From Candidatus Desulfofervidus auxilii (GTDB lineage: Bacteria > Desulfobacterota > Desulfofervidia > Desulfofervidales > Desulfofervidaceae), in assembly GCF_001577525.1 (NCBI RefSeq), contig NZ_CP013015.1:579652-611898 (forward strand): 32,247 bases of DNA, given 5' to 3'. Made by a program: the position numbers and the translations under genes. The stretch's first letter is position 1. The number at the start of each line of letters is the position of its first letter. A model generated the notes under the pieces. The model saw nothing but the letters and a program-made list of their open reading frames with translations. It was not told where the DNA came from and searched no databases. Below are positions 3,909-25,647 of the stretch, piece after piece.

Positions 3909-4312
3909 TGAAATCATATAAAGTGGGATTAATTGTATGTTTTTTGTTAAACCTCTTTTTTATAAAAATTAGTAGTGCTAGCCACATAGACCCTTTTAGG
4001 CCATTTATCAAATTAACAAAGGAGACTGCCAGCCCGGAAAGTCTGCTTCCTATCCAGAGATTAAAGCTCTCTGAAATAAAATTGACAGGAATTATTTGGA
4101 ATACAAAGAATCCTTTAGCCTTGATAGAAGACCCAGCAGGAAAAGGTTATGTTTTGAAAAAAGGAGACCTTATAGGTCCTTCTGGTAAGGTAAAAGAAGT
4201 AAAAAAAGACAGAGTTATTATTGAAGAAAGCTATATAGATATATTTGAAGGTAAAAAAACAAGGTTTGTAGAATTAGTTCTGCCCCAAAAAGAGGAGGCC
4301 ATTTTGCCATGA
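3908..4312 (+). CDS. pilP: Type IV pilus assembly protein PilP
   Basis: A 134-residue periplasmic protein with an N-terminal hydrophobic signal (about 5-24) and the PilP DPFRPF motif just after it, then a small beta-sandwich domain (LTGIIWNTKNPLALIEDP, GYVLKKGDLIG). PilP connects the PilN/PilO complex to the PilQ secretin. I prefer ATG 3908, which overlaps the pilO stop as TGATG, to the GTG one codon earlier. There is no lipobox cysteine, unlike many PilP proteins. It overlaps pilQ by 4 bp. Confidence 0.9.
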   Translation: MKSYKVGLIVCFLLNLFFIKISSASHIDPFRPFIKLTKETASPESLLPIQRLKLSEIKLTGIIWNTKNPLALIEDPAGKGYVLKKGDLIGPSGKVKEVKKDRVIIEESYIDIFEGKKTRFVELVLPQKEEAILP

Positions 4313-6519
4313 AAAAATTTATGTGTTTTATAATTTGTTTTTGTTTGATGGGTTTTGGCCAAATCCTAGCTAGTGAAAAGGCAACATTCATAAAAGAAGT
4401 TGAAGTCAAGACCCAAGCCAAAGAATTAAAAATACAACTTGTGGCCAATGGCCCTATTTCTGACTATGTTTCTTTCAGTTTAACCAAACCAGCTAGATTG
4501 GCAATAGATGTCCCCTTAATGGATTGCAAAATTCCTAGAATCTATCCATTAAATAACCCTATTTATCCTCGTTTACGTTGGGCACCCTTCAAGGGGAAAT
4601 TGCGTTTCGTTATTGACTCTAACTTAAAACAACTCCCTCCTTATAAAATCTCTGCTCAAAACAACAGATTGGAAGTATTATTGCCTTTGGAAAAACCTTC
4701 TTTACCATTAATAGCTGTGAAGGCCATAGATTTTGAACAAATATCGCCCCAAAAATGTCGGCTGGTAATAAGTAGTGAAGGGGAACTACAATATGAAGTT
4801 TCCCATCCTAAATTGCATACTATGCTCTTACAATTAGACAATGTAAAAATGCCTTCTTATCTCTTGAGGGAACTGGAGACAAAACACTTTCCCTGTGGTA
4901 TAGAACAAATTCTGCCATATTCTATAAGTAAGAACAAAGTAGGAATAGAAATAAAATTAAAAGAGAGAATACCTTTTAAGATAGTAACTACAGAGGAACA
5001 TTTATATCTTACCTTCACTACTTCTGGCAAAAAAGTAAAGGAAGCTAAGAAAGAAGAGTTGAAACCAGAGGTCTCAAAAAAGACAGAACCTAAGGAAGAA
5101 AAACCTCAGGAAGTAGTTGAGGCAGCCTTGTCCGTAAAACCAGCTTTTGTTTCCCTATTTGCTCAAAAACTACCTACTGAAACCCAAATCATCTTCCCTG
5201 GTAGGATAGGAGTGTTTACAGGACAACCTATTTCTTTAGATTTTCAAGATGCAGACATCAAAAATGTATTTAGAATCTTGGCTGAGGTAAGTGGTTTTAA
5301 TTTTGTGATAAGTGAAGGAGTAAAAGGAAAGGTTACTTTAAAATTAGATAATGTGCCGTGGGATCAAGCCCTTGACTTAATTTTACAAACCTATAGTTTA
5401 GGAATAGTAAAAAGAGGGAATGTATTGCGGATTTTGACTCTTGAAGACCTGAAAAAGGAACAAGAAAGATTGATTCAAACCCAACAAGCATTAGAAAAAA
5501 AGAAAGAATCAGAACCGTTAATCACAGAAGAAATCCAGGTGAATTATGTTAAGGCTGCTGATCTCATAAAACAACTTAAAGACATCAAAACTAACCGTGG
5601 GAAGCTTACTTATGACGAAATGACTAATAGAATTATTATGACAGATGTAAAAACAGCCCTTAAAAAAGCCAGGGATTTAGTAAGAAGCCTGGACATTGCT
5701 CCAAGACAGGTGATGATTGAAGGTAGAATTGTAGAAGTAAGTACTGAATACACTAAAGACTTAGGAATTCAATGGGGACAGCATTTTTCACATACCATGA
5801 CTGAAACAAGTAATATCATTGAAACTAGAGGCGGAGCAGGTGGAGGAGATAAATTTGAGTTTGAGATGGGAGATAGAGAGTGGAAGGGAAACATCCCTCT
5901 TATTGTCAATCTCCCCCCAGAAGGAGCTTATGGCGGACTTGGTTTTACTCTTGCCCATTTAGGAAGGGCTTACACTTTAATATTAGATGCAAAGCTTCAA
6001 GCTATGGAAAGCGAAGGGAAGGTGAAAATCCTTTCAGTTCCCAAAGTGGTCACTATGGACAATCAACCTGCTCTTATTTCTCAGGGCTTACAAATTCCTT
6101 ACCGCACTACTTCTGAAGCCGGGACTTATACCCAATTTCAGGAAGCAGTCTTAAAACTGGAAGTCACCCCTCATATTACCCCTGATAAAAAGGTCAGGTT
6201 AGAACTTAACCTACATAAGGATTCTCCGGGTATCCGACAAGAAGGTATGGATGCTATCCCTATTGAAAAAAAGGAAGTAAAAACTACTCTTTTGGTGGAT
6301 AATGAAGAAACCGTAGTAATTGGAGGTATCATCACCGAAACAAAAGAAAGTAAAGAAAGTAGAGTGCCCTTTTTTTCTCGTGTTCCGCTTTTTGGCTTAC
6401 TTTTTCAAAATAAGATGCGAGGGATTGCAAAAAGGGAGCTTCTTATGTTCATTACCCCAAGAGTAATAGCCCAAAAGGCAAGCATTCAAGAAAATTCCTT
6501 TATAAAAAGCGCTTATTGA
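4309..6519 (+). CDS. pilQ: Type IV pilus secretin PilQ
   Basis: A 736-residue outer-membrane channel subunit. In order: a signal peptide (1-21), two AMIN-type beta-sandwich domains (about 28-110 and 135-235), a linker rich in Lys, Glu and Pro (about 240-275), an STN/N0 domain (SLDFQDADIKNVFRILAEVS, about 305), a secretin N1 domain (EEIQVNYVKAADLIKQL), and the secretin core (QVMIEGRIVEVS; KVKILSVPKVVTMDNQPA; VTPHITPDKKVRLEL; DNEETVVIGGI; VPLFGLLF; ELLMFITPRVI). The start has a strong GAGGAGG ribosome site at 4292-4298. It is the last pil gene and is fused by a TGATG overlap to the formyltransferase-like gene. Confidence 0.96.
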   Translation: MKKFMCFIICFCLMGFGQILASEKATFIKEVEVKTQAKELKIQLVANGPISDYVSFSLTKPARLAIDVPLMDCKIPRIYPLNNPIYPRLRWAPFKGKLRFVIDSNLKQLPPYKISAQNNRLEVLLPLEKPSLPLIAVKAIDFEQISPQKCRLVISSEGELQYEVSHPKLHTMLLQLDNVKMPSYLLRELETKHFPCGIEQILPYSISKNKVGIEIKLKERIPFKIVTTEEHLYLTFTTSGKKVKEAKKEELKPEVSKKTEPKEEKPQEVVEAALSVKPAFVSLFAQKLPTETQIIFPGRIGVFTGQPISLDFQDADIKNVFRILAEVSGFNFVISEGVKGKVTLKLDNVPWDQALDLILQTYSLGIVKRGNVLRILTLEDLKKEQERLIQTQQALEKKKESEPLITEEIQVNYVKAADLIKQLKDIKTNRGKLTYDEMTNRIIMTDVKTALKKARDLVRSLDIAPRQVMIEGRIVEVSTEYTKDLGIQWGQHFSHTMTETSNIIETRGGAGGGDKFEFEMGDREWKGNIPLIVNLPPEGAYGGLGFTLAHLGRAYTLILDAKLQAMESEGKVKILSVPKVVTMDNQPALISQGLQIPYRTTSEAGTYTQFQEAVLKLEVTPHITPDKKVRLELNLHKDSPGIRQEGMDAIPIEKKEVKTTLLVDNEETVVIGGIITETKESKESRVPFFSRVPLFGLLFQNKMRGIAKRELLMFITPRVIAQKASIQENSFIKSAY

Positions 6520-11251: not shown

Positions 11252-12043
11252 GTGAGAAAAGTCTTTATTTTTTTAATATCAATTCTAACATTTATAGGAA
11301 TTTTGGAAAATGTTATGGCTGGTGTTGTAAAGTGGTCTCAACCCCCTCGTATGGATCAATATGGTTATGACTTTTCTTCAGAGACTCAAGTACCATCTAA
11401 AGTAGCAGACGATTATCTTTGTAAAAGTGGACTTCCTGTAATTGGAATTACTTGGTGGGGTTCTTATTGGAATTCGGGTAATTGGTATCCTTATAACAAC
11501 AGTAACCATTGGGGAGACCCAGCAAATGTTCCCCCTGGGACAGTGAATGGATTTATTATTCGTTTCTATAAGGATGTGCCTGCAGGTACAGGTACTCCTC
11601 CCTATAGCCACCCAGGTGATTTGCTTTATAAAGAAACATTAGATTTTAATTTGGTAAATGAGAAATATTATGGTCAAATTGACCACGCAGACGGAGAACT
11701 AGGGGTAGGAACTGATATAATTGAAACTGTCTTTCAATATCATGCCACATTGCCTATTCCCTTTGACCAACAAGCTGACAATATTTATTGGCTTTCTATT
11801 CAAGCCATTGACCATGATGGTAAGCCCATTCAATGGGGCTGGCATGAAGCAGAGAACCTTTGGCATGACAATGCAGTTCAGTGGGGCACATTTTTTAATG
11901 GCGGAATGGAGAATTGGAACATTCTTACCGATAAAGATATGGCCTTTCAAATAGAAGTAGTCCCCATTCCTACTACTTTATTGCTTCTAGGTACTGGATT
12001 GCTTGGCATCCTGACCCTGGGAAGGAAATCACGTCAAAGTTAA
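11252..12043 (+). CDS. Secreted PEP-CTERM protein with one copy of the WLQPPDM-type surface domain
   Basis: A 263-residue secreted protein: signal peptide (1-23), one aromatic-rich domain (about 26-235) and a PEP-CTERM-type sorting tail, VPIPTTLLLLGTGLLG followed by basic residues (GRKSRQS). The domain has the markers VKWSQPP, VADDYLC, YKDVPAGTG, YSHPGDLLY, IYWLSIQAI, WGWHEAE and WHDNAVQWG. These recur three times in the protein at 14574-17201. The fold and function are unknown to me; relatives are common in PEP-CTERM proteins of Planctomycetes and Deltaproteobacteria. The tail predicts cleavage by exosortase and cell-surface or matrix attachment. GTG start with GGGAGG at 11238-11243. Confidence 0.85.
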   Translation: MRKVFIFLISILTFIGILENVMAGVVKWSQPPRMDQYGYDFSSETQVPSKVADDYLCKSGLPVIGITWWGSYWNSGNWYPYNNSNHWGDPANVPPGTVNGFIIRFYKDVPAGTGTPPYSHPGDLLYKETLDFNLVNEKYYGQIDHADGELGVGTDIIETVFQYHATLPIPFDQQADNIYWLSIQAIDHDGKPIQWGWHEAENLWHDNAVQWGTFFNGGMENWNILTDKDMAFQIEVVPIPTTLLLLGTGLLGILTLGRKSRQS

Positions 12044-12221
12044 TTAGCTAAAAAGAGATCAAATAGAGATTAGGAAGATTGCTCAGAACAAGGTTAGAAT
12101 TTTTATCTAGGTTGAAAGTTAATGGAGATTATAGGGGTTGGTAGAGGCAGTTTCTAGGTTTGGGTTAGGTGACAAAAGGGAAAGACTGTTATTAAAACAA
12201 AAGATATGTAAGGGAGAAAAG

Positions 12222-13040
12222 ATGTTACAAAAAACACAAAAAGCAACATTTAAGGTTTTAATTTCATTGGTCATATTCTTTTTCGCTTTTGCTCTGGCAA
12301 TGGCTGACAATGCCGTGGCTGAGGAGTTGACTGGGCCTCCTGAAGGCAAGGTTCCGTCCGTTGAGGCCGAGGAAGTCGAAGAGGGCGTACCGTTGTTCCA
12401 GGAAGGAGAGGATAAGCCACTACCACGTCCAACCCATCCGCCTATCCATCAGATCCCGCCGATGCCCATGCCTACTGAACCTCCCCAGGGAAGGGGAATG
12501 CCTTTAGAACCTGGAGTGGGAATCATTCATGATTTAAAAACAGGAAAAACAATCACTGTGCCAAACAATCTTACTATACCAAACGATACCTTAATGCAAG
12601 ATCAAGGTGGTGGTTATAGTGGAGCTGATGGGGGTGGTGGCATTGAAAATCTGTTAACCTCTTTTGGTACCATGATCAGAACAGAGAGTGTTGAGGATTT
12701 CCCTTGGCGGATGAATGTTAAGCTTGTAATGCGATTTGGAAGTGACTGGTACGTTTGCTCCGGCACCATGAGAGATGCCGAGGTTGTCCTTACCGCAGGC
12801 CATTGTGTATACGATTATGATGGAGAAGGTTGGGCTGATGAGATCTACGTCTATCCGGCGTATGATGGAGATACTTTTCCTATTGGAGCATATGGATATG
12901 GTTATGCTTCAAGGCTTGGCTCATGGACTGGATGGACTGAACATGGTGATTTGAACTATGACATTGGTGTAATTGAAATCCAAAGGGCTGTCGGCATGCT
13001 CACAGGACTGATTGCCCACATTAGCTATACAGTAAATTGA
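12222..13040 (+). CDS. Secreted trypsin-like (S1/glutamyl-endopeptidase type) protease, C-terminally truncated
   Basis: A 272-residue protein from ATG 12222 (AGGGAG ribosome site at 12211-12216): signal peptide (about 1-35), an acidic Pro-rich propeptide-like segment (about 40-110), then a chymotrypsin-fold N-terminal half. The catalytic His lies in VVLTAGHCVYD and the catalytic Asp in DLNYDIGVIEI. The reading frame ends about 20 residues later, before the second barrel, so the nucleophile Ser (GDSGGP or GxSGSP) is absent. I found no such motif in the next 55 bp up to the following gene. It is a truncated gene or a non-catalytic relic. An earlier in-frame start at 12138 would lengthen the N-terminus but has no signal sequence at its front. 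Confidence 0.78.
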   Translation: MLQKTQKATFKVLISLVIFFFAFALAMADNAVAEELTGPPEGKVPSVEAEEVEEGVPLFQEGEDKPLPRPTHPPIHQIPPMPMPTEPPQGRGMPLEPGVGIIHDLKTGKTITVPNNLTIPNDTLMQDQGGGYSGADGGGGIENLLTSFGTMIRTESVEDFPWRMNVKLVMRFGSDWYVCSGTMRDAEVVLTAGHCVYDYDGEGWADEIYVYPAYDGDTFPIGAYGYGYASRLGSWTGWTEHGDLNYDIGVIEIQRAVGMLTGLIAHISYTVN

Positions 13041-13095
13041 TAAAAGGGTTTATTAATTTAATTGGTAAATACAAAAGTAAAGGGGGTGAGAAGCA

Positions 13096-13725
13096 ATGAA
13101 AAAGCAAGGATTGTTAGTGTTATTTTTGATAATTGCGCTAATCTTCTTTATTGGGCTACCATCTGTTATGGCAGTAACTGATACCTTTTATGTTGAAATG
13201 GGCTCAAATAATGACCTTATTTCAGGTGGTGGCAGCGGATACGAGAATGGGACATGGTATTATTACCCAAATACTAAATGGTGGAATCAGTGGTTTTACA
13301 ATGCACCTTTTGACCTGGACCGCTGGAAGGTAATTGACATTTCCTTTAATATAGAGACTACTGGGCTGGGAAGTGCGGCCGTGGTTGCTTACAATTGGTC
13401 AACACCTGAGTGGTCTGCCCTTGGTTTAAATCGGCCTCCTCTTCCAGAAGATGTACCCACTCCTGAGTTAGAAGAAAAATATATAGAACGGCATATTTTC
13501 CTTATAGAGTCCGATTGGATACCTCCGTCATTTAGGGTTGAAGACCACTTTGAAATTCTAGACTATAATCCTGAATGGGTCTCCATTGATGTTCGGGGAG
13601 CTAATTTCAGGATAACTGATGGCGTAATAGATCACCGGTGCGTCCCTATTCCCAGCACCTTGCTGCTTCTAGGATCTGGTTTTATTGGGTTGATTGGCTT
13701 TAAGAGAAAATTATTTCGGGGATAG
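13096..13725 (+). CDS. Secreted PEP-CTERM protein of unknown function
   Basis: A 209-residue secreted protein: signal peptide (1-26), a globular part rich in Trp, Tyr and Asn (YENGTWYYYPNTKWWNQWF; WSTPEWSALGL) and the sorting tail VPIPSTLLLLGSGFIG with a basic end (FKRKLFRG). The tail predicts exosortase processing. I do not recognise the main domain. A strong GGGGGTGAG ribosome site precedes the ATG. It lies between the truncated protease and the cohesin-like protein, 58 bp before the latter's start, so all are probably co-transcribed. Confidence 0.8.
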   Translation: MKKQGLLVLFLIIALIFFIGLPSVMAVTDTFYVEMGSNNDLISGGGSGYENGTWYYYPNTKWWNQWFYNAPFDLDRWKVIDISFNIETTGLGSAAVVAYNWSTPEWSALGLNRPPLPEDVPTPELEEKYIERHIFLIESDWIPPSFRVEDHFEILDYNPEWVSIDVRGANFRITDGVIDHRCVPIPSTLLLLGSGFIGLIGFKRKLFRG

Positions 13726-13783
13726 TGAATGTGGATAAGTAGTTAAATTAGTGAAAATATAAGGGAAAAAGGAGGTGAAAAAG

Positions 13784-14380
13784 ATGAAAAGATTGTTAGT
13801 TGTAGCTGTGGCATTGTTTATGGTATTGGGGTTGGCAAACCCGGTAAGAGCGGACTTAGTGTTTAACCTTGATTTTGGACAGGATAGCAATTATGAGAAT
13901 TATTGGGAGTTGAATCCGGGTGAGACTGTATCAATAGATATCTATGTTTCTAACGTACCTGATCCTGGTCTAATAAGTATGGGTTTTGATCTTGTTTATG
14001 ATCAAACTCAACTTGAGGTAGTGACTGCGGATATTGACAGTACAAATTGGTATATGGGTGGTGTTCAACACACTACTCCTGAAATTGAGATGAAAGGTGG
14101 CCGTGTGGAGCCAGGTCTTTCTGGTGATAATATTAAGCTTGGAACAATCGAATTTAAGTGTGTGGCTATGGGTATCAGCGAACTCTGGTTGTATGACAGT
14201 GATCGGGGAGGCAATTATGATGATTTTGTCTTAGTTGGCGGGACGGTGCTAGATGAGCAGATTGTTAGTGGAGTAAATCTGGCCGAGGTCAACAATGTCC
14301 CCATCCCCAGTACCTTGCTCCTTTTGGGTACTGGACTAATTAGTTTTCTTGGTTTAAGCCGAAGGAGGATTGCCGGTTAA
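13784..14380 (+). CDS. Cohesin-like domain protein with PEP-CTERM anchor
   Basis: A 198-residue secreted protein: signal peptide (about 1-23), one cohesin-like beta-sandwich domain (about 28-160) and a C-terminal sorting tail, VPIPSTLLLLGTGLIS then SRRRIAG. Cohesin markers are the start of the jelly roll (NPGETVSIDIYVSNVPD), the middle motif MGFDLVYDQTQLEVV, and GDNIKLGTIEFKCVAMGISEL near the end. Cohesins bind dockerins in a calcium-dependent way, and six intact dockerin-tagged proteins are encoded just downstream. The PEP-CTERM tail would hold the cohesin at the surface. Start ATG 13784 is preferred to GTG 13775, since GGAGGTG at 13771-13777 is correctly spaced for it. The domain assignment rests on pattern alone. 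Confidence 0.75.
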   Translation: MKRLLVVAVALFMVLGLANPVRADLVFNLDFGQDSNYENYWELNPGETVSIDIYVSNVPDPGLISMGFDLVYDQTQLEVVTADIDSTNWYMGGVQHTTPEIEMKGGRVEPGLSGDNIKLGTIEFKCVAMGISELWLYDSDRGGNYDDFVLVGGTVLDEQIVSGVNLAEVNNVPIPSTLLLLGTGLISFLGLSRRRIAG

Positions 14381-14390
14381 AGAGAAAAGT

Positions 14391-14432
14391 CATTATAGGA
14401 GGTGGCTAACCTAAAGCCAACCTCCTATAATG
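14391..14432 (+). terminator. Long hairpin after the cohesin-like gene
   Basis: CATTATAGGAGGTGGCT (14391-14407) pairs with AGCCAACCTCCTATAATG (14415-14432), 17 bp with one bulged A and a 7-nt loop. No T run follows on the plus strand, so it may be an RNA-stabilising or partial-termination hairpin at the border between the anchored proteins and the dockerin proteins. Confidence 0.45.
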
Positions 14433-14573
14433 GCTACAAAAAACACCAATTGGATTAGATTTTCCTAAAGAGTTTCAGTGCTGCAAGTGACATGCCAGGA
14501 TGAGAGAGGAGGATTATACTACATAAGTTCAATAACTTACCGATGGGCACTTGTAAGAGCTAAAGGAGGTATT

Positions 14574-17201
14574 ATGAAAAAATTATTAGTGTTTTCCTTT
14601 GTGGCCATTTTTCTGATGATGGCCGCAGGTGCACAGGGAACAAATGGAGGTACTGGTAAATGGCTTCAGCCTCCAGATATGGAGTATGGAGTAAATATAA
14701 AATCCACTGAGTCAGAGCCCATTGTGGCCGATGACTGGAAGTGTGAAGACCCAAGGGAAATAGTGAATGTCCACTTCTGGGGCTCTTATATTGGCTGGGA
14801 AAGAGAGAATCCTGAGCCACCACTTCCTCCACCTGGAGTGAACGCCTTTATCATCCGTATTTATAAAGATGTGCCTGCCGGGGCCGATCCAGACTTTCCC
14901 TATAGTCACCCAGGCGAGCTTCTTTATGAAAAAAGGGTAACAGAATTTAAAGAAAGGTATTATGGTACAATTACTCATCCAGATGAAACCTATGAGCACA
15001 AATTTTATTATAGTTTAGATCTTCCTGAACCATTTTATCAGAGGGAAGGAACTGTTTACTGGATTTCTATTGCCGCGGTTATGCCAGATGGCAGCGAATT
15101 CCCCTGGGGATGGGAAACCTCTACAGCCCACTGGAATGATAATGCCTGCCGATATTGGTTTTACAATAACTATTGGGAAGAAATTTTGCCTTCACAGCTT
15201 CCTTCTTGGTATCAGGAACATTACAGAACCGTAGACATGGCCTTTGAGCTCACAGTAGAATTTGAGCCACCGCCGCCCTTGGAGCCTATAAAGTGGCAGC
15301 AAAGACCAGACATGGAGCAAGGGGCAAACATTATCTCCATTCCAATTATGCCTTCACAAAAAAACCCTGTAGAGCGGGGCACTGTGGCTGATGACTGGCT
15401 CTGCTTAGATGCCAGCCCTGTCTCTGACTTACATTTCTGGGGTTCATATCCAGGCTGGGAAGAGCAAAACCCAGGACCGCCTATGACCCCTCCACCAGGG
15501 GTAGAAGCATTCAGAATCCAGGTCTATTCTAATGCTCCAGCCACAAGCCCACAAGATTTCAGCCGTCCTGATAAGCTGTTGTATGAGGTCTGGGTTAAGG
15601 ACTTTACTGAAACCTATGTAGCAAGTATCTTTCACTTCTGGGATGAAAAATGGGAACATAAGTACCGCTATGATTTAGACCTCCCTCGTATCTTCTGGCA
15701 AAAGCGGGATAAAATCTACTGGCTAAATATCTCGGCAATTCCTAAAAATCCTGATTACCTTTGGGGCTGGGAGAGCTCCATGGACCGCTGGGGTGATTTT
15801 GCTGTAAAGGGCTGGTATTTAGACCCGGATAATTGGTGGTGGGAGATGATTAAACATCCCTATACAGGAGAAAATATCGATATGGCCTTTGAACTTACTA
15901 CCTGTGAAGGCCCCATTAAGTGGCTGCAATTCCCTGATATGGCCAATGGCATTAATATCCTATCTCTGGACCCTGTGGTGGCCGATGACTGGCTGTGCAT
16001 CAAAGGAAAGCCCATCACTGAGATACACTTCTGGGGTTCTTATTTAAGTTGTGATGGACAGGTACATTGGGAGCAAAGAAATCCTGGGCCACCTGAAAAT
16101 CCACTTCCTCCCACCCCTGGATTATCTGGCTTCTGGATAAGTTTCCACAAAAATGTTCCTGCTGGAGTAGACCCTGATATGCGCTGGAGCCACCCAGGTG
16201 AACTGATTAAAGAGATATGGGTGGATTTTAAGGATGTAAAAGAAATCTATTGGGATTCTGTGCCTCACTCCACAGGCCCAGATGGTTTAATATGGTGGGA
16301 ACATAAGTTCTATTACATCGTCCGTCTGGAAGAACCTTTTAAACAGGAGGAAGGAACCATCTACTGGCTGAATATTGGGGCAACACCACTACCAGACAGC
16401 CGATGGTGCTGGGGCTGGGAGACCTCCAAAGACCACTGGAATGATAATGCAGTCCAGGGTTCAGAAGAATGGTGGGAGGAATTGGGCGCATCAACAATCG
16501 ATTTCGAAGACCTCATACTTGGAACCACATATAACTGCTGCGGATATAAATTCACCACCTCGGGCATTCCAGTTACCCTGAAGAAGTTCCAATGGAGTAA
16601 CGGCCAATGGACCAGCGACGGGTATACTAAGGTTCAGGACGGCGGGCAAGCCGGAGGCTCGGGCAATGAGATGTGGGTCAACAATGTCAACCTGGACTTT
16701 GGCTTTGGAGTTCCCCTTACACATTTGTCTCTCCTCTTCGGTGAGTATGGCGGTAACGTCAATATTGAAATCAATGGCGATTTCCGGAATGTTCTCAACT
16801 TCTCAGACATTAACGGACTCACAATAGGCGGGGTTCTTGTCACCGTGGTTGATTTTGGTGGCGGCAAAGGAGGTATCACCTTAACCGGCGTCATCAACCA
16901 ATTCGCTATCGGCGGACAGGAGCTAGCTATCGACAACGTCGAGGCTCCCATAGATATGGCCTTCGCACTCATCACCAAGGATGATACCAAATATTGCGAG
17001 GGAGATTTTGACCGTGACGGAGACGTGGATGGCTCTGATCTAGCCATATTTGCCGCAGACTTTGGGAGAACAGACTGCTATTTTACAGGCGATTGTGAGG
17101 GTGACTTTGATTACGATGGTGATGTAGATGGCTCTGATTTGGCAGTATTTGCTGCAGACTTTGGTAGGACTGATTGCCCCTGTGCATTGAATGTGCCTTA
17201 A
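14574..17201 (+). CDS. Large secreted protein: three WLQPPDM-type domains, an inserted beta domain and two dockerin repeats
   Basis: An 875-residue protein: signal peptide (1-22) and three copies of the same domain as in the 11252 gene, starting at residues 29, 240 and 449 (markers ADDW, HFWGSY, VPAG, IYWLNI, WGWETS, HWNDNA, DMAFEL). Copy 3 is interrupted by a foreign domain at residues 640-790 (TIDFEDLILGTTYNCCGY to FAIGGQELAIDNVE). The end (808-875) has two dockerin-like EF-hand repeats, [20 protein letters not shown] and a close copy, each closed by TDC. There is no PEP-CTERM tail, so attachment would be through a cohesin. Start chosen at ATG 14574 with AAAGGAGG at 14562-14569. The domain function is unknown. 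Confidence 0.85.
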   Translation: MKKLLVFSFVAIFLMMAAGAQGTNGGTGKWLQPPDMEYGVNIKSTESEPIVADDWKCEDPREIVNVHFWGSYIGWERENPEPPLPPPGVNAFIIRIYKDVPAGADPDFPYSHPGELLYEKRVTEFKERYYGTITHPDETYEHKFYYSLDLPEPFYQREGTVYWISIAAVMPDGSEFPWGWETSTAHWNDNACRYWFYNNYWEEILPSQLPSWYQEHYRTVDMAFELTVEFEPPPPLEPIKWQQRPDMEQGANIISIPIMPSQKNPVERGTVADDWLCLDASPVSDLHFWGSYPGWEEQNPGPPMTPPPGVEAFRIQVYSNAPATSPQDFSRPDKLLYEVWVKDFTETYVASIFHFWDEKWEHKYRYDLDLPRIFWQKRDKIYWLNISAIPKNPDYLWGWESSMDRWGDFAVKGWYLDPDNWWWEMIKHPYTGENIDMAFELTTCEGPIKWLQFPDMANGINILSLDPVVADDWLCIKGKPITEIHFWGSYLSCDGQVHWEQRNPGPPENPLPPTPGLSGFWISFHKNVPAGVDPDMRWSHPGELIKEIWVDFKDVKEIYWDSVPHSTGPDGLIWWEHKFYYIVRLEEPFKQEEGTIYWLNIGATPLPDSRWCWGWETSKDHWNDNAVQGSEEWWEELGASTIDFEDLILGTTYNCCGYKFTTSGIPVTLKKFQWSNGQWTSDGYTKVQDGGQAGGSGNEMWVNNVNLDFGFGVPLTHLSLLFGEYGGNVNIEINGDFRNVLNFSDINGLTIGGVLVTVVDFGGGKGGITLTGVINQFAIGGQELAIDNVEAPIDMAFALITKDDTKYCEGDFDRDGDVDGSDLAIFAADFGRTDCYFTGDCEGDFDYDGDVDGSDLAVFAADFGRTDCPCALNVP

Positions 17202-17204
17202 TGT

Positions 17205-17238
17205 CCTGTAAGGGCGGACAAAGTCCGCCCTTTACAGG
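17205..17238. terminator. Hairpin after the large dockerin gene
   Basis: CCTGTAAGGGCGGAC and GTCCGCCCTTTACAGG form a 15-bp stem (one bulged T) around an AAA loop, 3 bp after the stop codon. There is no T run after it. The same hairpin with a TTT loop follows the next dockerin gene at 18816-18849. Confidence 0.55.
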
Positions 17239-17257
17239 CAAATATGAATCTACCTTG

Positions 17258-17365
17258 TGTGAAGGTGACTTTGATGGCGATGGCGATGTAGATGGCTCTG
17301 ATTTGGCAGTATTTGCTGCAGACTTTGGGAGAATTGATTGCCCCTGTTGGAAAAAAGTCAGGTAG
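17258..17365 (+). pseudogene. Orphan dockerin-repeat remnant
   Basis: In one frame this stretch encodes one full dockerin-like repeat ([20 protein letters not shown], ending [12 protein letters not shown] and a stop), but no gene runs into it; the upstream gene stopped at 17201. The same ending, CPCWKKVR, closes the intact gene at 19327-20895, and in both places the next gene starts 13 bp later with almost the same upstream sequence. It is the tail of a lost gene left by recombination. Confidence 0.75.
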
Positions 17366-17378
17366 GAAGTAGGGTGAG

Positions 17379-18812
17379 ATGAAGGCAAGGTTATTATTTT
17401 TGGTCTTTTTGGTGGCCTTTTTGGCAACTAATGTAACATTGGGAGAGATCTTTAATGTAACAAACCTAGAGGAGTTTCAAGATGCACTTACAACTGCAGA
17501 ATCTAATGGGGAGGATGATATAATAAATGTGGCCGAAGGGACATATAATATTACCTCTACCCTTCGCTATTCAACTTATGATGGGGATAGCGGTGATAAA
17601 CTTACCATTCAGGGTGCAGGTGCAGATAAGACAGTCCTTGATGGTGGAGGAAGTGTTCAGATTTTGTATATAGATACTGGCACAGATGGTGGTGATGTAA
17701 CAATAAAGGATATGGCCCTTGAGAATGGAAATGGGGGCAACGGCGGTGGTATCTATGTTCATGGGTCATCTATAAATATAACAATAAAAGAGTGTATATT
17801 CTCAGGAAATTCAGCTGAGGATGCTGGTGGTGGTGTAGAGGCAGATTCATGGTCAGGCACAATAACTATTATAAACAATATATTCTCAAGAAATTCAGCT
17901 AAGTATGGTGGTGGTGTATCTGCACATTCAGACTCAGGCATAACTATTATAAACAACACATTCTCAGAAAATTCAGCTAAGGATTATGGTGGTGGTGTAT
18001 CTGCACATTCATGGTCAGGCACAGTAACTATTACAAACAATATATTCTCAAGAAATTCAGCTAAGTATGGTGGTGGTGTAGATGCAGGTTCAGACTCAGG
18101 CACAACCATTATAAACAATACATTCTCAGGAAATTCAGCTAGTCGGGATGGCGGCGGTATATGGACACGGTTATATTATGACTCAGCAATCCTAAATATT
18201 TATAATAATATCTTTTTTGATAACACAGCCAATGCTGGTGGAAATGACGGCGATGACCTATATGTTAATTCTGATGGTAATGGGAATTCCACAGGCTCTA
18301 CTGTCAATCTATACAACAATAACCTTTCAGGAAATGCCAATTTTGATACAGGGCAGTCTGAGGACCTTTTTATAACTGAGACAGATAATTACTCACATGG
18401 AGCTAATATTCAACAAAATCCTCTATTTGTGGATGCTGAAAACGGAGATTTTCACCTAGAATCAACTTCCCCCTGCATAGATGCAGGCACAAATGATGCC
18501 CCTCACCTGCCAGACAAAGATAAAGATGGAAAACCAAGGATTATAGATGGAGATGGTGATGATATAACCATTGTAGATATGGGTGCTTATGAGTTTGGTG
18601 ATATATGTGAGGGTGATTTTGATTGTGACGGAGATGTGGATGGAAGTGATCTAGCTATATTTGCCGCAGACTTTGGCCGTACAGACTGCTATTTTACAGG
18701 CGATTGTGAGGGTGACTTTGATTACGATGGTGATGTAGATGGCTCAGACTTAGCCATATTTGCAGCAGATTTTGGGCGTACAGATTGCCCCTGTGCATTG
18801 AATGTGCCTTAA
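17379..18812 (+). CDS. Secreted right-handed beta-helix protein with two dockerin repeats
   Basis: A 477-residue protein: signal peptide (1-22), a parallel beta-helix (about 23-340) built of turns such as [18 protein letters not shown], a choice-of-anchor-Q-like segment (about 350-406: [31 protein letters not shown]), and two dockerin-like repeats (410-477). Beta-helix proteins of this type are found among polysaccharide lyases, adhesins and surface proteins; no catalytic residues can be assigned. It is a close paralogue of the 20909 gene, including the 5' flank. The dockerin pair matches that of the 14574 gene down to its end, CPCALNVP. Near-identical turns (lines of NNxFSxNSA) imply internal duplication. 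Confidence 0.87.
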
Positions 18813-18815
18813 TGT

Positions 18816-18849
18816 CCTGTAAGGGCGGACTTTGTCCGCCCTTTATAGG
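18816..18849. terminator. Hairpin after beta-helix gene 1
   Basis: The same stem as at 17205-17238 (CCTGTAAGGGCGGAC with GTCCGCCC), but with loop TTT in place of AAA, three bases after the stop codon. The two copies are inverted relative to each other within otherwise directly repeated flanks. Confidence 0.55.
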
Positions 18850-18854
18850 CAAAT

Positions 18855-19131
18855 ATGAATGTAAATAAAGATAAACCAATTATAATAGACCCACTTCTTG
18901 CAAGCACCTTCATTGATGGAAGTAGTGATGTATATGTAACTGGCTTTTTAACTATCTTAGAAGATAAGGTAACTGTGTTGAAGCCATAATGTAGGTGGGA
19001 TGTTTTTATCTCAAAGCTTGATAAAAACCTTTCTGCAGCAAAATCTTATGAGGGAAATTTTGACAATGATATTGAGATAGATAACAATGATTTAACTATT
19101 TGATTTTGGCCGGATAGACTGCCTGGTCTGT
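18855..19131 (+). pseudogene. Decayed SBBP-type repeat protein with a broken dockerin
   Basis: An ATG at 18855 opens 44 codons containing PLLASTFIDGSSDVYVTGF, which resembles the seven-bladed-propeller SBBP repeat (xxYLGGSSDDxxxVTGxT). It stops at 18989. From 19047 a dockerin can be read in another frame (YEGNFDNDIEIDNNDLTI, then stop), and after a frame change FGRIDCLVCE. So the C-terminal dockerin of a former secreted protein is present but degenerate: Cys to Tyr at its start, a deleted residue in the calcium loop, and a frameshift. The whole 514-bp gap between the beta-helix genes is otherwise without a gene. Confidence 0.6.
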
Positions 19132-19262
19132 GAGTGGGCAGTTTTTTGTGTTGATAATTTAAGGTATTAAAGCCTGCTAGATTTTTTTGAAAAAATCTTG
19201 ACAAAAAGTGGAAAAGTGGAAATTTAAAGAAAATAAGGTGCGCAAAGAAAGGAGGATTGGTG

Positions 19263-19281
19263 TAACGACAGAGTGTCGTTA
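19263..19281. repeat. Short perfect hairpin in the leader of beta-helix gene 2
   Basis: TAACGACA-gag-TGTCGTTA: an 8-bp stem with a 3-nt loop, 45 bp before the ATG at 19327. A TTGACA lies at 19198-19203 but no good -10 hexamer follows it. The hairpin could protect or regulate the leader. No function can be assigned. Confidence 0.4.
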
Positions 19282-19326
19282 TGCCAGGGTTGATGTGATT
19301 TTGGGAAATTACAAAAGGGGTTAATA

Positions 19327-20895
19327 ATGAGAAAAGGAAGCATTTATAAAGTTATGTTAGGAGTGGTTTTGTTCCTTAGTGTTATTATAATAAATATTTC
19401 AAATGCAATAGGAGCAACTTTTACTGTAACAAATACTACAGAGTTTCAAGATGCTTTAGATATAGCTCATAATAATAATGAAGATGATATAATTTATGTT
19501 TCTCCTGGCACATACACTGTCTCATCAACCCTTAGCTATCAAACGGACACAGGTGATAATGGACATAGCCTTATCATTAAAGCACAGGATATGAATAATA
19601 AACCTGTACTTAATGGAAATCTAACACAAATTATGAATATAAACACGGACACATCCAATAATGGTGGAGATATAGGTGGTGATATTACTATATGTGGAAT
19701 TGTTTTTAAGAATGGCTCAAGTAGTTTTGGTGGTGGGATTTACGTTCATACAACCAGCGCAAGTATTAATGTTTGTAAAAATATTTTTAATAATAATTCT
19801 GCTTCTAATGGTGGTGGTATCTATGTGAAAACAGACTCAGGTAATGTTACAGTTACAGATAATATTTTTAGTGAGAATTCAGGCAGTATTAGTGGTGGTG
19901 GCATCTGTGTCCAAGTAAATTCAAGTACAGTCAACTTTGAAAATAATACTTTTAATGAAAATGGGGATTTTTTGGGTGGTGGGATCTATATGGAAGCAAG
20001 AACAGGTAAAATTACTCTTATAAATAACACTTTTTATAATAATTCAGGTGGTGTTGGTGCTGGTGCTTGTATAACTTCAACTGCAGGGACAACCACATTA
20101 ATAAACAATATTTTTACCGAAAATACAGTTAGCTTTGAGTGGGATAGTTATGGCGGCGGTGTTCATGCAGAGACAGGCTCAGGTAAAATTATCTTTACAA
20201 ACAATATTTTTAATAATAACTCCGCCAATAATGGAGGTGGTATTAATATTATGCTTAGTGCTGACCAGGCTAAAGCCAATATTTACAATAATATTTTTTG
20301 GAATAATACTGCTGATTCTAATAATGCTGCTGATTTTGGTGAAGATATCTATATAATGAGTGATAAGAATAAAAACGGCATAGGCTCTATAATAAATCTC
20401 TATAATAACAACTTTTCAGGAAATGCAGACTTTGATACAGGGCAGTCTGAGGATCTTTTTATAACTGAGACAGATAATTACTCACATGATGGTAATATCC
20501 AGGAAGATCCTCTATTTGTGGATGCTGAAAACGGAGATTTTCACTTACAATCAACTTCCCCCTGCATAGACACAGGCACAAATGATGCACCTCACTTACC
20601 AGAGACAGACAAAGATGGTAAGCCAAGGATTATAGATGGAAATGGTGATGAGATAGCTATTGTAGATATGGGTGCTTATGAGTTTGGTGATATATGTGAA
20701 GGGGATTTTGACCATGACGGTGACGTCGATGGCTCTGACCTGGCCACCTTCGCGGCTGACTTTGGAAGGACAGATTGTAGTGGCGATTGTGAGGGCGACT
20801 TCGATAATGACGGCGATGTAGATGGCTTTGATTTGGCAGTATTTGCAGCAGACTTTGGAAGAACTGATTGCCCCTGTTGGAAAAAAGTCAGGTAG
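19327..20895 (+). CDS. Secreted right-handed beta-helix protein with two dockerin repeats (second)
   Basis: A 522-residue protein with a signal peptide (1-29), a beta-helix of about 14 turns (for example [40 protein letters not shown]), an anchor-Q-like segment (about 390-453, NPLF-type [33 protein letters not shown]) and two dockerin-like repeats (457-522), ending CPCWKKVR. The second repeat has Phe for Ser at the calcium-loop position 11 ([10 protein letters not shown]). It is more divergent from the 17379 and 20909 genes in the helix than in the last 150 residues, which are nearly the same in all three. This suggests gene conversion of the C-terminal part. Confidence 0.87.
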
Positions 20896-20908
20896 GAGGT
20901 AGGGTGAG

Positions 20909-22321
20909 ATGAAGTCAAGGTTATTATTTTTGGTCTTTCTGGTGGCCTTTTTGGCAACTAATGTAGCATTTGGGGAAACCTTTAATGTAACAAACCTAGA
21001 GGAGTTTCAAGATGCACTTACAATTGCAGAATCTAATGGGGAGGATGATATAATAAATGTGGCCGAAGGGACATATAATATTAATATCACCTCTCCCCTT
21101 AATTATTCAACCAATGATGGGGACAGTGGTCATACGCTTACCATCCAGGGTGCTGGGGTAGATAAGACAATACTTGAGGGAGGAAGATTGAGAATAGATA
21201 CTGATGAAGATTGGAATGGTGGTGATAGGGGTGCTGATGTAACAATAGAGGGTATGACCTTTAAGAATCGCCGTGGATACATACATGGGACACATATAAA
21301 TGTAAAAATAAAAGAGTGTACATTTTCAACAGGTGGTGGCATAGAAGTACGTTTGGACTCAGGCACAATAACTGTTACAAACAATATATTCTCAGGAAAT
21401 TCAAGTGTGTGGGGTGGTGGCATAACAACATATTTAAGGTCAGAAGGCACAATAACTATTACAAACAATATATTCTCAGGAAATTCAGCTAAGGATTATA
21501 CTAATCCATTGAATGGTTATGGTGGTGGTGTACTTGCACATTTATGGTTAGGCACAATAACTATTACAAACAATATATTTTCAGGAAATTCAGCTGATCA
21601 TGGTGGTGGTGTATCTGTATATTTAACGTCAGGCACATTAACTATTACAAACAATACATTCTCAGGAAATTTAGCTAGTCAGGATGGTGGCGGTGTATGG
21701 GCACGGTCATACTATGATTCAGCAACCTTAAATATTTATAATAACATCTTTTTTGATAACACAGCCAATGCTGGTGATGATCTACATATTGGATGTGATT
21801 GCAATGGAAATCATATAGGCTCTATAATAAATCTCTATAATAATAACTTTTCAGGAAATGCAGATTTTGATACAGGGCAGTCTGAGGACCTTTTTATAAA
21901 TGAGACAGATAATTACTCACATGGGGGTAATATTCAAGAAAATCCTCTATTTGTGGATGCTGAAAATGGAGATTTTCACTTACAATCAACTTCCCCCTGC
22001 ATAGATACAGGCACAAATGATGCACCTTACTTACCAGATACAGACAAAGATGGAAAACCAAGGATTATAGATGGAAATGGTGATGATATAGCCACTGTAG
22101 ATATGGGTCCATATGAATTTGGTGATATATGTGAAGGGGATTTTGATGGTGACAGTGATGTAGATGGTTCAGACTTAGCCACCTTCGCGGCTGACTTTGG
22201 AAGGACAGATTGTAGTGGCGATTGCGAGGGCGACTTCGATAATGACGGCGATGTCGATGGCTCAGATTTAGCTGTATTTGCGGCAGATTTTGGGAGGACG
22301 GATTGCCCGGTGTGTGAGTAA
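20909..22321 (+). CDS. Secreted right-handed beta-helix protein with two dockerin repeats (third)
   Basis: A 470-residue protein: signal peptide (1-22, nearly the same as that of the 17379 gene), a beta-helix (about 23-330; turns such as [20 protein letters not shown]), an anchor-Q-like segment (about 340-404) and two dockerin-like repeats (408-470, ending TDCPVCE). In the first repeat Gly is replaced by Ser at loop position 6 ([10 protein letters not shown]). It starts 13 bp after the upstream stop, so the two are probably one transcript. The N-terminal 60 residues and 5' flank are a duplicate of the 17379 gene, the dockerin region resembles the 19327 gene, so this is a mosaic. Confidence 0.87.
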
Positions 22322-22460
22322 AAGCTCGTAGCTGACAGCTCATAGCTCACAGGTGATTGGGTTTATTGATTTCACACGGTTCATAGAGTTTGTTGGCGTT
22401 AATTCAATTTAAGGAAAAGGAAATAGTTGTAAAAATTAAAAATTTCAAAGGGGGTCAGCT

Positions 22461-23246
22461 ATGGGAGGAGAAAGACATTTAAGTTATAGGAAATTGTTAG
22501 TTTTTGTTTTCTTCTTTGTATTTATTGGATTGCCTATTTCATCTTTTGGGGAAACTTATAATTTAAAAGAATATTTCCCTGTGGAGCAAGGAGAGTTTTT
22601 AAACTATAAGGTTACTGTACTGGAAAATGGTGTCGACATAGAAGTAGAGAGTCAGTACGGAGGTAGTAAAGTAGTTATTAATGGGGTGGAGTGCACAAAG
22701 TGTGTTACCCGTGGAGGTGAGATGTATGAATATGGAGGTTGGTATGAGGACGGCCTTAGACTATATAAATCCAAATACCCGGTTGAGGATGAATATCGAA
22801 TCTATGAACCTTATATACTGATTTGTCCTCTTACATTGGAAACCGGAGAGCCTTTTACAAGTGAATGTATTTATAAGATCTATGAAAGTGGTGTAATAAC
22901 AGAGCAAGGGCCTCTAAAGGTAGAATTGCGGGCCTTAGGTGAAGAGGAAGTGACAGTTCCAGCAGGGACTTTTAATTGCCTTAAGATTTATGGCAGAGTC
23001 GAATGGAAACCGCCGTATGAACCAGCACATAGTGGGGAAGGATACATTTGGTTGGCCCGCGGTATTGGTTTAATCAAGCTCGACGTGACTCCCAATGTAG
23101 TGGATGGACGTGAACCCAGGGTTTATGAGCTTCTTTTTGGTTTTATCCCTGTATGCAAAGGTGACTTTGACCATGACGGGGATGTAGATGGGGCTGATTT
23201 AGCTATATTTGCCTCAGAATTTGGAAGGACTGATTGTTTGCCATAG
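22461..23246 (+). CDS. Secreted protein with one dockerin repeat
   Basis: A 261-residue protein: signal peptide (about 1-30), a beta-rich domain (about 33-228) with YFPVEQGEFLNYKVTVLENG near its start and VTVPAGTFNCLKIYGRVEW and YIWLARGIGLIKLDV later, and one dockerin-like repeat at the end (232-261, [25 protein letters not shown]). The phrases Y-F-P-x-x-x-G and V-P-A-G-x-F-x-C with W-L-A-x-G-I-G-L-I-K are typical of a broad family of lipoprotein-like envelope proteins of unknown role. There is no anchor-Q segment and a single rather than paired dockerin. GGGGG lies 8 bp before the ATG. Confidence 0.8.
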   Translation: MGGERHLSYRKLLVFVFFFVFIGLPISSFGETYNLKEYFPVEQGEFLNYKVTVLENGVDIEVESQYGGSKVVINGVECTKCVTRGGEMYEYGGWYEDGLRLYKSKYPVEDEYRIYEPYILICPLTLETGEPFTSECIYKIYESGVITEQGPLKVELRALGEEEVTVPAGTFNCLKIYGRVEWKPPYEPAHSGEGYIWLARGIGLIKLDVTPNVVDGREPRVYELLFGFIPVCKGDFDHDGDVDGADLAIFASEFGRTDCLP

Positions 23247-23281
23247 GAAGTTGGGCTATTAGAGTAGATTGGGAAACTTTT

Positions 23282-23657
23282 ATGAATGATGGCCTCTGGA
23301 AGAGAAGAGCAGTAATTGTATTGGCATTGATATTTCTCCTAACAGGCTGTTTTGCTCGCTTAAAAGCACCTGAGCTAAATCCTGAGATGGCAGGTTTTCA
23401 GGGGATGGAATGGGACACATCATTAGAAAAATTGAATTTAAAGATAAAGGGAGAAGATAAAGGGAGAGGTCTTAAATGGTTTTTTACTAAGGATAAGATC
23501 TTTTTAGCAAATGTGCCCTTAAATGAGGCAATTTATGAAAAAGATAAATTTATTTGACTTCTATCATGGTTTAGATGTAGATGGTAGTGACCTAGCTATA
23601 TTTGCTGCTGATTATGGCAGAGAAAATTGCCCGTGTCCTTCGATTTTGCTACAATGA
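23282..23657 (+). pseudogene. Short lipoprotein with a frameshifted dockerin
   Basis: From ATG 23282 a lipoprotein signal is clear (KRRAVIVLALIFLLTGC, lipobox LTGC), followed by about 65 residues of unrecognised sequence, with a stop at 23555-23557. Directly after the stop, in another frame, a dockerin half-repeat reads [28 protein letters not shown] and ends at 23655-23657. The two parts were once one gene: a frameshift or deletion has separated them and damaged the first half of the calcium loop. The lipoprotein part could still be made. Confidence 0.6.
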
Positions 23658-23784
23658 GGAAGGCCAAGCTTGGAAGGATGGTTGATTGAGTTTAGGGTTT
23701 AATCCAATCAAAAAAAGGAGGTGGTTGCAAATGCGGTGAATGATCAATTGTTAAAGGTAAAAAACAGAAAAGGAGGATTAAGAG

Positions 23785-24687
23785 ATGAAAGGTAAATCAA
23801 AAATCCAATTGGCTTTATGGGCTTTACTGTTTATGGTAGCCATCCCTATTTCTGCCTACGGGGTAGATGGGCAGATAAAGATTGCCCAGACGGCAGCAAC
23901 CACCTTTCCCATCCAAATAAATGAGCCTGGGAGTTATGTGCTTACATCTAACCTTATAGTAACCACTGCTAATGTGAATGCCATAAAGATCAATGCCGAT
24001 AATGTAACCTTAGACCTAAATGGCCATGGTATTTATAGGCCAGGAACTGGAACTGGATATGGCATTTATGCCCGAAATAAGTTCAACATAACCATAAAAA
24101 ACGGTATTGTGAGAGGGTTTTATTATGGAATTTACCTATATAACAATCCTGACCACAAAGGTGCTGGCCACCGTATTGAGGGGATTCAGGCTTCTAACAA
24201 TGGCCGTAATGGGATTTATGCCTACTATAGCACAGTAACCAACTGCACTGCTAATAACAATGGCGATGATGGGATTTCTGCCTCCTATAGCACAGTAACC
24301 AACTGCACTGCTAATAACAATGGCGATGATGGGATTTCTGCCTCCTATAGCACAGTAACCAACTGCACTGCCAATAACAATGACATTGGGATTAATGCCT
24401 GCCACAGCACAGTAACCAACTGCACTGCCAATATCAATGGCACTAATGGGGTTTATGCCTACTATAGCACAGTAACCAACTGCACTGCTAATAACAATGG
24501 CGATGATGGGATTTATGCCTTCCACAGCGCAGTCAAGGGTTGCAATGTGAGGAATAACACTGGATATGGGATAGAAGCGTGCTTCGGTTGCCAAAGCTAC
24601 ATCTATAGAAATGCTGCAAGTGGGAACACTGCTGGTCAGATTAACTGCCCAAGCGGAAACACCTGTGTGGATAATGCTACCTTCTAA
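23785..24687 (+). CDS. Secreted NosD-like parallel beta-helix protein
   Basis: A 300-residue protein: signal peptide (1-26), then PbH1-type beta-helix turns. The first part (NVTLDLNGHGIYRPGTGTGY, NITIKNGIVRGFYYGIYLYN) is of the NosD/periplasmic-copper-binding-like kind, and the second part is six 18-20-residue turns of the form YSTVTNCTANNNGDDGI. There is no dockerin and no PEP-CTERM tail, unlike its neighbours. AAAGGAGG lies 8 bp before the ATG. Cysteines recur once per turn (TNC) and would stack into a ladder along the helix. Function unknown; likely extracellular. Confidence 0.83.
   Translation: MKGKSKIQLALWALLFMVAIPISAYGVDGQIKIAQTAATTFPIQINEPGSYVLTSNLIVTTANVNAIKINADNVTLDLNGHGIYRPGTGTGYGIYARNKFNITIKNGIVRGFYYGIYLYNNPDHKGAGHRIEGIQASNNGRNGIYAYYSTVTNCTANNNGDDGISASYSTVTNCTANNNGDDGISASYSTVTNCTANNNDIGINACHSTVTNCTANINGTNGVYAYYSTVTNCTANNNGDDGIYAFHSAVKGCNVRNNTGYGIEACFGCQSYIYRNAASGNTAGQINCPSGNTCVDNATF
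24208..24527 (+). repeat. Tandem ~60-bp repeats coding the beta-helix turns
   Basis: Units of 54-60 bp of the form CACAGTAACCAACTGCACTG plus a variable spacer. The 60 bases at 24241-24300 and 24301-24360 are the same base for base; other units differ at a few positions. This indicates recent unit duplication and a likely variable number of turns between strains. Confidence 0.85.
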
Positions 24688-24714
24688 TTCCAGTTTTTTA
24701 AGGAGAGAAATGCC

Positions 24715-25647
24715 ATGATAGCCAAATTTAGGATGACCAAAGTGGTGTCCCTCCTCTTAGGGGCCATTCTTACAGTGGCTATTTCCTCTTTATCTTTTGC
24801 AGAGATCTTTCTTTCTCCCGACATCCCAATAACCATAGGGAGTGACGCCTTTGAGGAGAGGGATGTTATGTACTTTAAGGATTCTAGTTTTCTACCATAT
24901 ATTTCTGGCTCAACCTTGGGGATTCCAAAAGGGGTAAACATAGATGCCTTTGGCTTCTCTGAGGGCAAAATCATCTTTTCTGTGGATATACCCACTACAT
25001 TAGATGGAGTGGCCTATACTGAGCGAGACCTAATCCTCTATGATGGGACTAATTTTAGTAAGCTTTTAGATGGTTCAGCTATACCTGATGGGGCACGTAT
25101 TGATGCCGCCACTGTACTTTCTGATGGAAGTATTGTCTTTTCCCTGGATATCCCTGTAACTTTAGGTGGACTCTCCTTTAAGGCCAATGACCTTATTAGA
25201 TATAACGGCTCATTTACTCTCTACTTTAGTGGTTCTGACCATAATATCCCAGAAAGTGCCAATATAGATGGGGTATGGGTAAGTCCTGATGGTGATATTC
25301 TATTTTCACTAGATATCCCTTGTAACCTCAATGGACTAGAAGTCAAGGATAAAGACATTGTCAAATGGTCTAATGGTTCCTTCTCCTTATACTTTGATGG
25401 GCTTTCAGAAGGAATTCCTTTAGGTGCTGATCTAGATGCCTTATCTTCAATAGAACTATGTGAAGGTGACTTTAACGGTGACGGAGATGTGGATGGAAGT
25501 GATCTGGCTATATTTGCCGCAGACTTTGGCAGAACAGACTGCAATCTTACAGGCGATTGTGAAGGTGACTTTGATGGCGATGGCGATGTAGATGGCTCAG
25601 ACTTGGCAGTATTTGCCGCAGATTTTGGCAGGACAGACTGCCCCTGA
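24715..25647 (+). CDS. Secreted protein with four DIP repeats and two dockerin repeats
   Basis: A 310-residue protein: signal peptide (1-29) and four repeats of about 54 residues, each beginning [I/L]FS[L/V]DIP and containing DLIxYDG and a GIPxGAxIDA-like end (for example IIFSVDIPTTLDG, IVFSLDIPVTLGG, ILFSLDIPCNLNG). This looks like a beta-propeller or beta-sandwich repeat protein. Two dockerin-like repeats follow (249-310). The repeat type is common in secreted proteins of unknown function. AGGAG at 24701-24705 precedes the ATG. It is the last gene of the island; a terminator follows. Confidence 0.83.
   Translation: MIAKFRMTKVVSLLLGAILTVAISSLSFAEIFLSPDIPITIGSDAFEERDVMYFKDSSFLPYISGSTLGIPKGVNIDAFGFSEGKIIFSVDIPTTLDGVAYTERDLILYDGTNFSKLLDGSAIPDGARIDAATVLSDGSIVFSLDIPVTLGGLSFKANDLIRYNGSFTLYFSGSDHNIPESANIDGVWVSPDGDILFSLDIPCNLNGLEVKDKDIVKWSNGSFSLYFDGLSEGIPLGADLDALSSIELCEGDFNGDGDVDGSDLAIFAADFGRTDCNLTGDCEGDFDGDGDVDGSDLAVFAADFGRTDCP

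Follow-up and report, generated by a model that had tools for sequence, protein, structure and literature searches.

A predicted exosortase-sorted cohesin and its dockerin-bearing gene cluster in Candidatus Desulfofervidus auxilii

The window considered here is a stretch of 32,247 nucleotides, bases 579652-611898 of the single 2,540,211-base contig that makes up the genome of Candidatus Desulfofervidus auxilii, also known as HotSeep-1 (GCA_001577525.1, 2,540,211 bp; Table 1 of Murali et al. 2023, PMC10553843). A gene at window positions 13775-14380 on the plus strand encodes a cohesin domain followed by a PEP-CTERM tail, and six intact genes downstream of it encode proteins that end in dockerin repeats. 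The tailed cohesin probably serves as a monovalent anchoring scaffoldin, sorted by an exosortase and receiving the six dockerin-bearing proteins as cargo, with the cohesin-dockerin set of the window (type A) kept separate from a second one (type B) elsewhere in the same genome.

The cohesin and its tail

The cohesin gene encodes 201 amino acids, with an alternative ATG at 13784 that is preceded by GGAGG. A preliminary description, made from the sequence alone, had ascribed to this protein a cohesin-like domain and a PEP-CTERM tail, and profile searches bear out both: the protein scores 30.7 bits on PF00963 (cut-off 24.1), which places it in the cohesin family, and its tail, NNVPIPSTLLLLGTGLISFLGLSRRRIAG, passes TIGR02595 PEP_CTERM (17.5; cut-off 16) while staying under the cut-off of PF07589 (18.1; cut-off 20.7). 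The layout of an exosortase substrate—a C-terminal signature, a hydrophobic stretch, and a basic end—is present in full. An AlphaFold2 model of the cohesin with six relatives reached a mean predicted local distance difference test score (pLDDT) of 71.8 and a predicted template modelling score (pTM) of 0.64, the core being better ordered. When the model was compared with the PDB by Foldseek, every one of the first 30 ranks was taken by a structure that contains a cohesin (E from 6.2e-7, TM-score by target up to 0.71), so that the predicted structure adopts the expected cohesin beta-sandwich; the cohesins of ScaE and OlpA/OlpC are among the matches.

The dockerin-bearing proteins

All six downstream genes lie on the plus strand, and their secreted products have C-terminal dockerin repeats but lack an anchor, as the preliminary description had it, except that 22461-23246 carries one repeat and not a pair. 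Two repeats each are found in the other genes. The first, 14478-17201, encodes three DUF7901 domains (PF25470, E 8e-159) ahead of its dockerin (16995-17180); its likelier start is 14574, which a ribosome-binding-like site precedes. Right-handed beta-helices are predicted for 17379-18812 (PF13229, NF041518; dockerin 18606-18791) and, by family matches, for 19327-20895 (dockerin 20695-20874), both with a choice-of-anchor Q domain, and for 20909-22321 (dockerin 22130-22309), a paralogue of 17379. A DUF3108-like protein (PF21347, E 6e-9) is encoded by 22461-23246, with its single repeat copy at 23152-23236, and a DIP-repeat protein, recognised from its sequence, by 24715-25647 (dockerin 25459-25644).

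The dockerin character of these repeats is supported by repeat alignment, profile, and model. A profile of 17 such dockerins retrieved solved dockerins, the best being 2y3n_B (8.5e-9), a chain of a type II complex from Bacteroides cellulosolvens. The modelled dockerin of 24715-25647 (pLDDT 88.4) found the same type II chain as its best PDB match, with a TM-score by target of 0.77 and a root-mean-square deviation of 1.5, at a Foldseek E of only 7e-3 for a very short chain. Tandem calcium-binding loop-helix repeats in a dockerin fold are thus predicted for the cargo, 22461 having one repeat only.

The dockerin in the window cargo stands after the choice-of-anchor Q domain; in other proteins, choice-of-anchor domains carry their anchor at that place. 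A related exchange is seen for DUF7901. The protein of 11252-12043 (plus strand; PF25470, E 4e-50), whose weak PEP-CTERM match suggests direct anchoring, is 35% identical to 14574-17201, and the former bears a PEP-CTERM tail where the latter bears a dockerin; tail and dockerin are therefore interchanged on the same domain within one cluster. The ten window proteins that were scanned contain no glycoside hydrolase, carbohydrate-binding module (CBM), or S-layer-homology (SLH) domain, and the earlier statement of their absence holds for those ten.

At the DNA level, the dockerin repeat occurs 13 times across the cluster, and several of the copies are orphan or decayed: a half-repeat remnant at 17255-17344 (plus strand), a copy at about 18980-19030, and a repeat at 23545-23633 (plus strand) with no intact gene around it. 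Together with a copy elsewhere in the genome (C1:1625208-1625465, C1 being the contig), these point to birth and death of dockerin-tagged genes. One segment that runs from a dockerin to the start of the following gene is present in two copies (93% identity), so that growth of the cluster by copying of tagged genes is probable.

Exosortases and a second type of set in the genome

The genome holds two exosortase genes (PF09721, E 9e-71 and 1e-65), as the proposed anchoring had led one to expect. The first lies in a complete XrtA/PEP-CTERM exopolysaccharide cluster, comprising a PEP-CTERM response regulator, EpsB_2, XrtA-system deacetylase, EpsI, and FemAB, and is XrtA-like (185 bits; XrtA cut-off 208). 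The second is XrtD (572 bits; cut-off 400).

Two further genes encoding a cohesin with a PEP-CTERM tail (cohesin-PEP genes) were found on the minus strand, at C1:2105604-2106221 and C1:2432664-2433278. Their products share about 77% identity and are distant relatives of the window cohesin; that of C1:2432664 scores 22.3-22.5 bits on PF00963, slightly under the cut-off. Downstream of each, on the same strand, lie genes for large secreted proteins with a different dockerin, GDLDGDGDVDLDDLNILLTYRNQ...DIDGDGVITVLDARKLVLLCTRPRCA. Dockerin genes on the same strand thus follow all three cohesin-PEP genes of the genome, and the genes of type A, in the window, and type B, at the two other loci, are unmixed. 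The proposed division of labour, in which exosortase anchoring is split from cohesin-dockerin display, gains support from this linkage and from its recurrence across families described below.

Type B cargo carries SBBP propellers, ZU5, carboxypeptidase-regulatory, fibronectin, and ASPM-type immunoglobulin-like domains. The earlier view of the cargo as adhesion or matrix parts and not enzymes does not hold throughout, for cargo elsewhere counts proteases; the papain-family protease encoded by an intervening gene at the type B region has no recognised dockerin. Signs of a cellulosome are wanting: cohesin searches of the genome returned single-cohesin proteins and no multi-cohesin scaffoldin, and a scan confined to dockerin cargo of the genome returned no glycoside hydrolases or CBMs. 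The fusion of a cohesin to a predicted surface-sorting signal in three genes suggests instead anchoring scaffoldins of the ScaE/OlpA kind.

Three near-alike Uma2-like genes (MDTAVK..IKFTYEDYLHF) adjoin type B dockerin genes, at C1:2096467-2097018, 2101941-2102495, and 2429091-2429642.

Recurrence in other genomes

A comparable cluster is present in G001, a genome of the same family and another genus, where genes for CARDB-like dockerin, cohesin-dockerin, cohesin-PEP, DUF7901-like dockerin, and beta-helix-dockerin proteins occur together. A scan of named genomes for the type A dockerin led to Seep-SRB1g strain C00003106, a partner of anaerobic methanotrophic (ANME) archaea, to the isolate Desulfobacter latus AcRS2, and to a metagenome-assembled genome (MAG) of Thiohalobacter; in each, a cohesin-PEP gene adjoins a type A dockerin gene, and because these three loci were found via the dockerin they are biased for linkage. 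Over near-full length, the cohesin of Desulfobacter latus matches that of the window at 44% identity (E about 1e-48); its gene lies 46 bp from a beta-helix-dockerin gene.

Among profile-confirmed cohesin-PEP genes of Desulfobacterota, a set consisting of the loci from the cohesin query and the window's own, 19 of 21 are accompanied on their own strand by a dockerin-bearing gene no more than one gene away. G006 and G319 hold the two exceptions, and the G319 gene lies at a contig edge. The linkage distinguishes cohesin-PEP genes from other PEP-CTERM genes, as a dockerin gene was detected within 1.5 kb on either side for 10 of 17 of the former and for none of 32 of the latter (Fisher p 2.4e-6). 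Dockerins were detected in this comparison by a motif pattern made by the analyst, and the control set included the many tail-only PEP-CTERM matches given by a type B alignment search.

A cohesin-dockerin adaptor, in which a cohesin and a C-terminal dockerin are combined within some 250-267 residues, stands directly beside cohesin-PEP in G001, Desulfobacter latus, CP070697, and G192; the window cluster, having no adaptor, would be the simple two-part form. The PEP neighbours of adaptors in G307, G398, and G401 were tried as further cohesins and not confirmed. They were consequently left out of the 21, though they are still part of the Mantel set treated below.

Many PF00963 matches across the phylum, taken up as candidate display cohesins, turned out to be tailless secretin-like proteins or lipoproteins and were discarded. 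In several Desulfobacterota (L043, L044, L046, L047, L048, L050, L054, L056, L068), secretin-like proteins some 625 amino acids long end in a cohesin-family domain; a PF00963 match by itself does not indicate surface docking. A contig binned as Methanococcoides (L114) encodes several type A dockerin proteins, which may reflect either misbinning or transfer between archaea and bacteria.

Proposed mechanism and alternatives

The following sequence of events is proposed. The cohesin would be exported and then processed by an exosortase through its PEP-CTERM tail, to be retained at the cell surface or within the exopolysaccharide layer. Since exosortase substrates are associated with exopolysaccharide in the literature (PMC1569441), a matrix location appears as likely as a membrane one. 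The six anchorless cargo proteins would be exported separately by their signal peptides, and their predicted calcium-binding dockerins would plug into the cohesin in calcium-rich sea water. Because they would plug into the same cohesin, one sorting event could serve many interchangeable cargo proteins, for which an adhesive or matrix role is conceivable. Distinct cohesin-dockerin sets, type A in the window and type B at two loci, would run in parallel.

Several points weigh against this scheme. The confidence of the cohesin model is moderate, and the pairing of cohesin with dockerin is drawn from single-chain models and gene linkage. An exosortase was not detected (E 1e-5) in G252, Thiohalobacter G308 (L124), or CP070697/G302 (L160), all of which have cohesin-PEP genes; incompleteness may account for this in draft assemblies, although the MAG record CP070697 consists of a single chromosome. 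The exosortase may also release its substrates instead of anchoring them, and the dockerin cargo would in addition have to cross the outer membrane. Finally, cohesin and dockerin distances are correlated across 23 linked pairs (Mantel r 0.70, p 1e-4; r 0.58-0.59, p 1e-4, once near-duplicates or dockerin-found loci are removed), a correlation expected for a binding pair but also for co-inherited linked genes.

Among the alternatives, the one that survives best, though it is unlikely, is that the dockerins dock mainly onto cohesins of the ANME partner, or that the cohesin takes archaeal dockerins, so that the proteins would glue the species of the methane-oxidising consortium to each other. Non-cellulosomal cohesins and dockerins are abundant in ANME archaea, with tens of them in ANME-1 and ANME-2a genomes (Timmers 2017, Chadwick 2022; PMC5244752, PMC9012536); high expression in ANME-2c and its Seep-SRB2 partner has been reported and partner sensing suggested (Murali et al. 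2023, PMC10553843), and the type A module occurs in Seep-SRB1g as well. Nearly all cohesin-PEP genes, however, adjoin a dockerin set of their own, and the module is present in the Thiohalobacter MAG and in the isolate Desulfobacter latus, which is not known to partner ANME archaea; the comparison covered bacterial cohesins and not archaeal ones.

Slightly less probable still is that no binding takes place: the repeats would be mere calcium-binding C-terminal folds and the cohesin-like protein one of many PEP-CTERM beta-sandwiches, sharing a cluster as secreted surface genes. The window dockerins do miss the Pfam cut-off for PF00404 (best protein 16.6; cut-off 22.9), which one type B dockerin, encoded outside the window, passes with 23.3, and cohesin-like domains occur in non-display proteins such as the secretin-like proteins of relatives. 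Yet solved dockerins are the best matches of the dockerin model, the linkage is specific to cohesin-PEP as opposed to other PEP-CTERM genes, types match types in the distance correlation, and a fused cohesin-dockerin adaptor adjoins cohesin-PEP. That the system is a relic, a once-paired cohesin and dockerin family now eroding as the orphan or decayed copies at 17255, ~19000, 23545, and C1:1625292 might suggest, is hardly credible given six intact open genes with conserved repeats, three intact cohesin-PEP genes, and expression data according to which adjacent HotSeep-1 cohesin and dockerin genes may matter in partnership (Murali et al. 2023, PMC10553843).

The reading as an anchoring scaffoldin with untailed cargo is accordingly preferred. 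A far more tentative extension is that Gram-negative bacteria widely use exosortase-anchored cohesins as a display platform, in which the dockerin codes are orthogonal and paired by lineage and the cohesin-dockerin adaptor is conserved. Such a platform would be the counterpart of sortase- or surface-layer-anchored cellulosome scaffoldins, and in methane-oxidising consortia its modules may also join bacterial and archaeal surface proteins.

Relation to known systems

ScaE of Ruminococcus flavefaciens is a sortase/LPXTG-anchored single-cohesin scaffoldin, and OlpA/OlpC of Clostridium thermocellum are anchored to the surface layer. As in these proteins, a single cohesin on a putatively surface-anchored protein would receive dockerin-bearing partners in HotSeep-1, as read from genes and models. 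What sets the HotSeep-1 protein apart is that its proposed anchor is a PEP-CTERM tail, to be handled by the exosortase of a Gram-negative cell, and that no cellulosome cargo was seen. The adaptor beside cohesin-PEP resembles the pairing of adaptor and anchoring scaffoldins in cellulosomes. The PEP-CTERM/exosortase system (Haft 2006, PMC1569441) is matched in the tail, the exosortases, and the XrtA exopolysaccharide gene cluster; it differs in that its known substrates each bear their own tail, whereas in the scheme proposed for HotSeep-1 the cargo is untailed and shares a single tailed cohesin. The name of NCBIfam NF041540, 'GC-type dockerin domain-anchored protein', likewise treats the dockerin as an anchor, although dockerins of the window and of G001 score 15.6-16.3 on it, under its cut-off of 29.

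The combination had been thought undescribed, which holds in part. Conserved cohesin and dockerin proteins of HotSeep-1 and Seep-SRB1g have been suggested to act in adhesion or partner sensing (Murali et al. 2023, PMC10553843), a study whose main text mentions neither sortase nor PEP-CTERM. Because these proteins had already been noted as putative adhesins, what is new is limited to the exosortase anchoring, the pairing of types, the tandem with the adaptor, and the wide spread. No paper naming both dockerin and PEP-CTERM was found in the open-access literature searched, which, with subscription papers mostly outside it, is weak evidence of absence. Such adhesins have been described as absent from free-living and closely related sulphate-reducing bacteria (PMC10553843); unlike in that picture, the module is present in G001, of the same family, and in Desulfobacter latus. 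Since an isolate carries it, the module is not specific to syntrophy, and the view of these proteins as a syntrophy-specific adaptation is to be corrected.

An exosortase-sorted receptor for many cargo proteins would join exosortase sorting with cohesin-dockerin assembly. It supplies a mechanism, concrete enough to be tested, for the puzzling cohesins and dockerins that syntrophic sulphate-reducing bacteria have outside any cellulosome, and the Desulfobacter latus isolate allows such a test with no consortium. Docking tools are a further conceivable use of separate pairs from a thermophile.

Other features of the window

Besides 11252-12043, a further PEP-CTERM-type protein of the cluster is encoded by 13096-13725 (plus strand), a secreted protein of no assigned function whose PEP-CTERM/VPDSG-like tail is suggested by its sequence and by weak matches under curated cut-offs. 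Between the two lies 12138-13040, encoding a trypsin-like secreted protein (PF00089, positions 11-97 of 220) that ends after the first half of the protease domain and is probably truncated and inactive. The beta-helix gene 23785-24687 has no dockerin. Upstream of the cluster, at 1649-6519, type IV pilus assembly genes (PilM, N, O, P, Q-like) are found. The start of a transposase-like gene (MKRLSGGIDIGSDNHH...) at 1-597 on the minus strand recurs at C1:2086533, in a partly masked copy beside the type B dockerin region.

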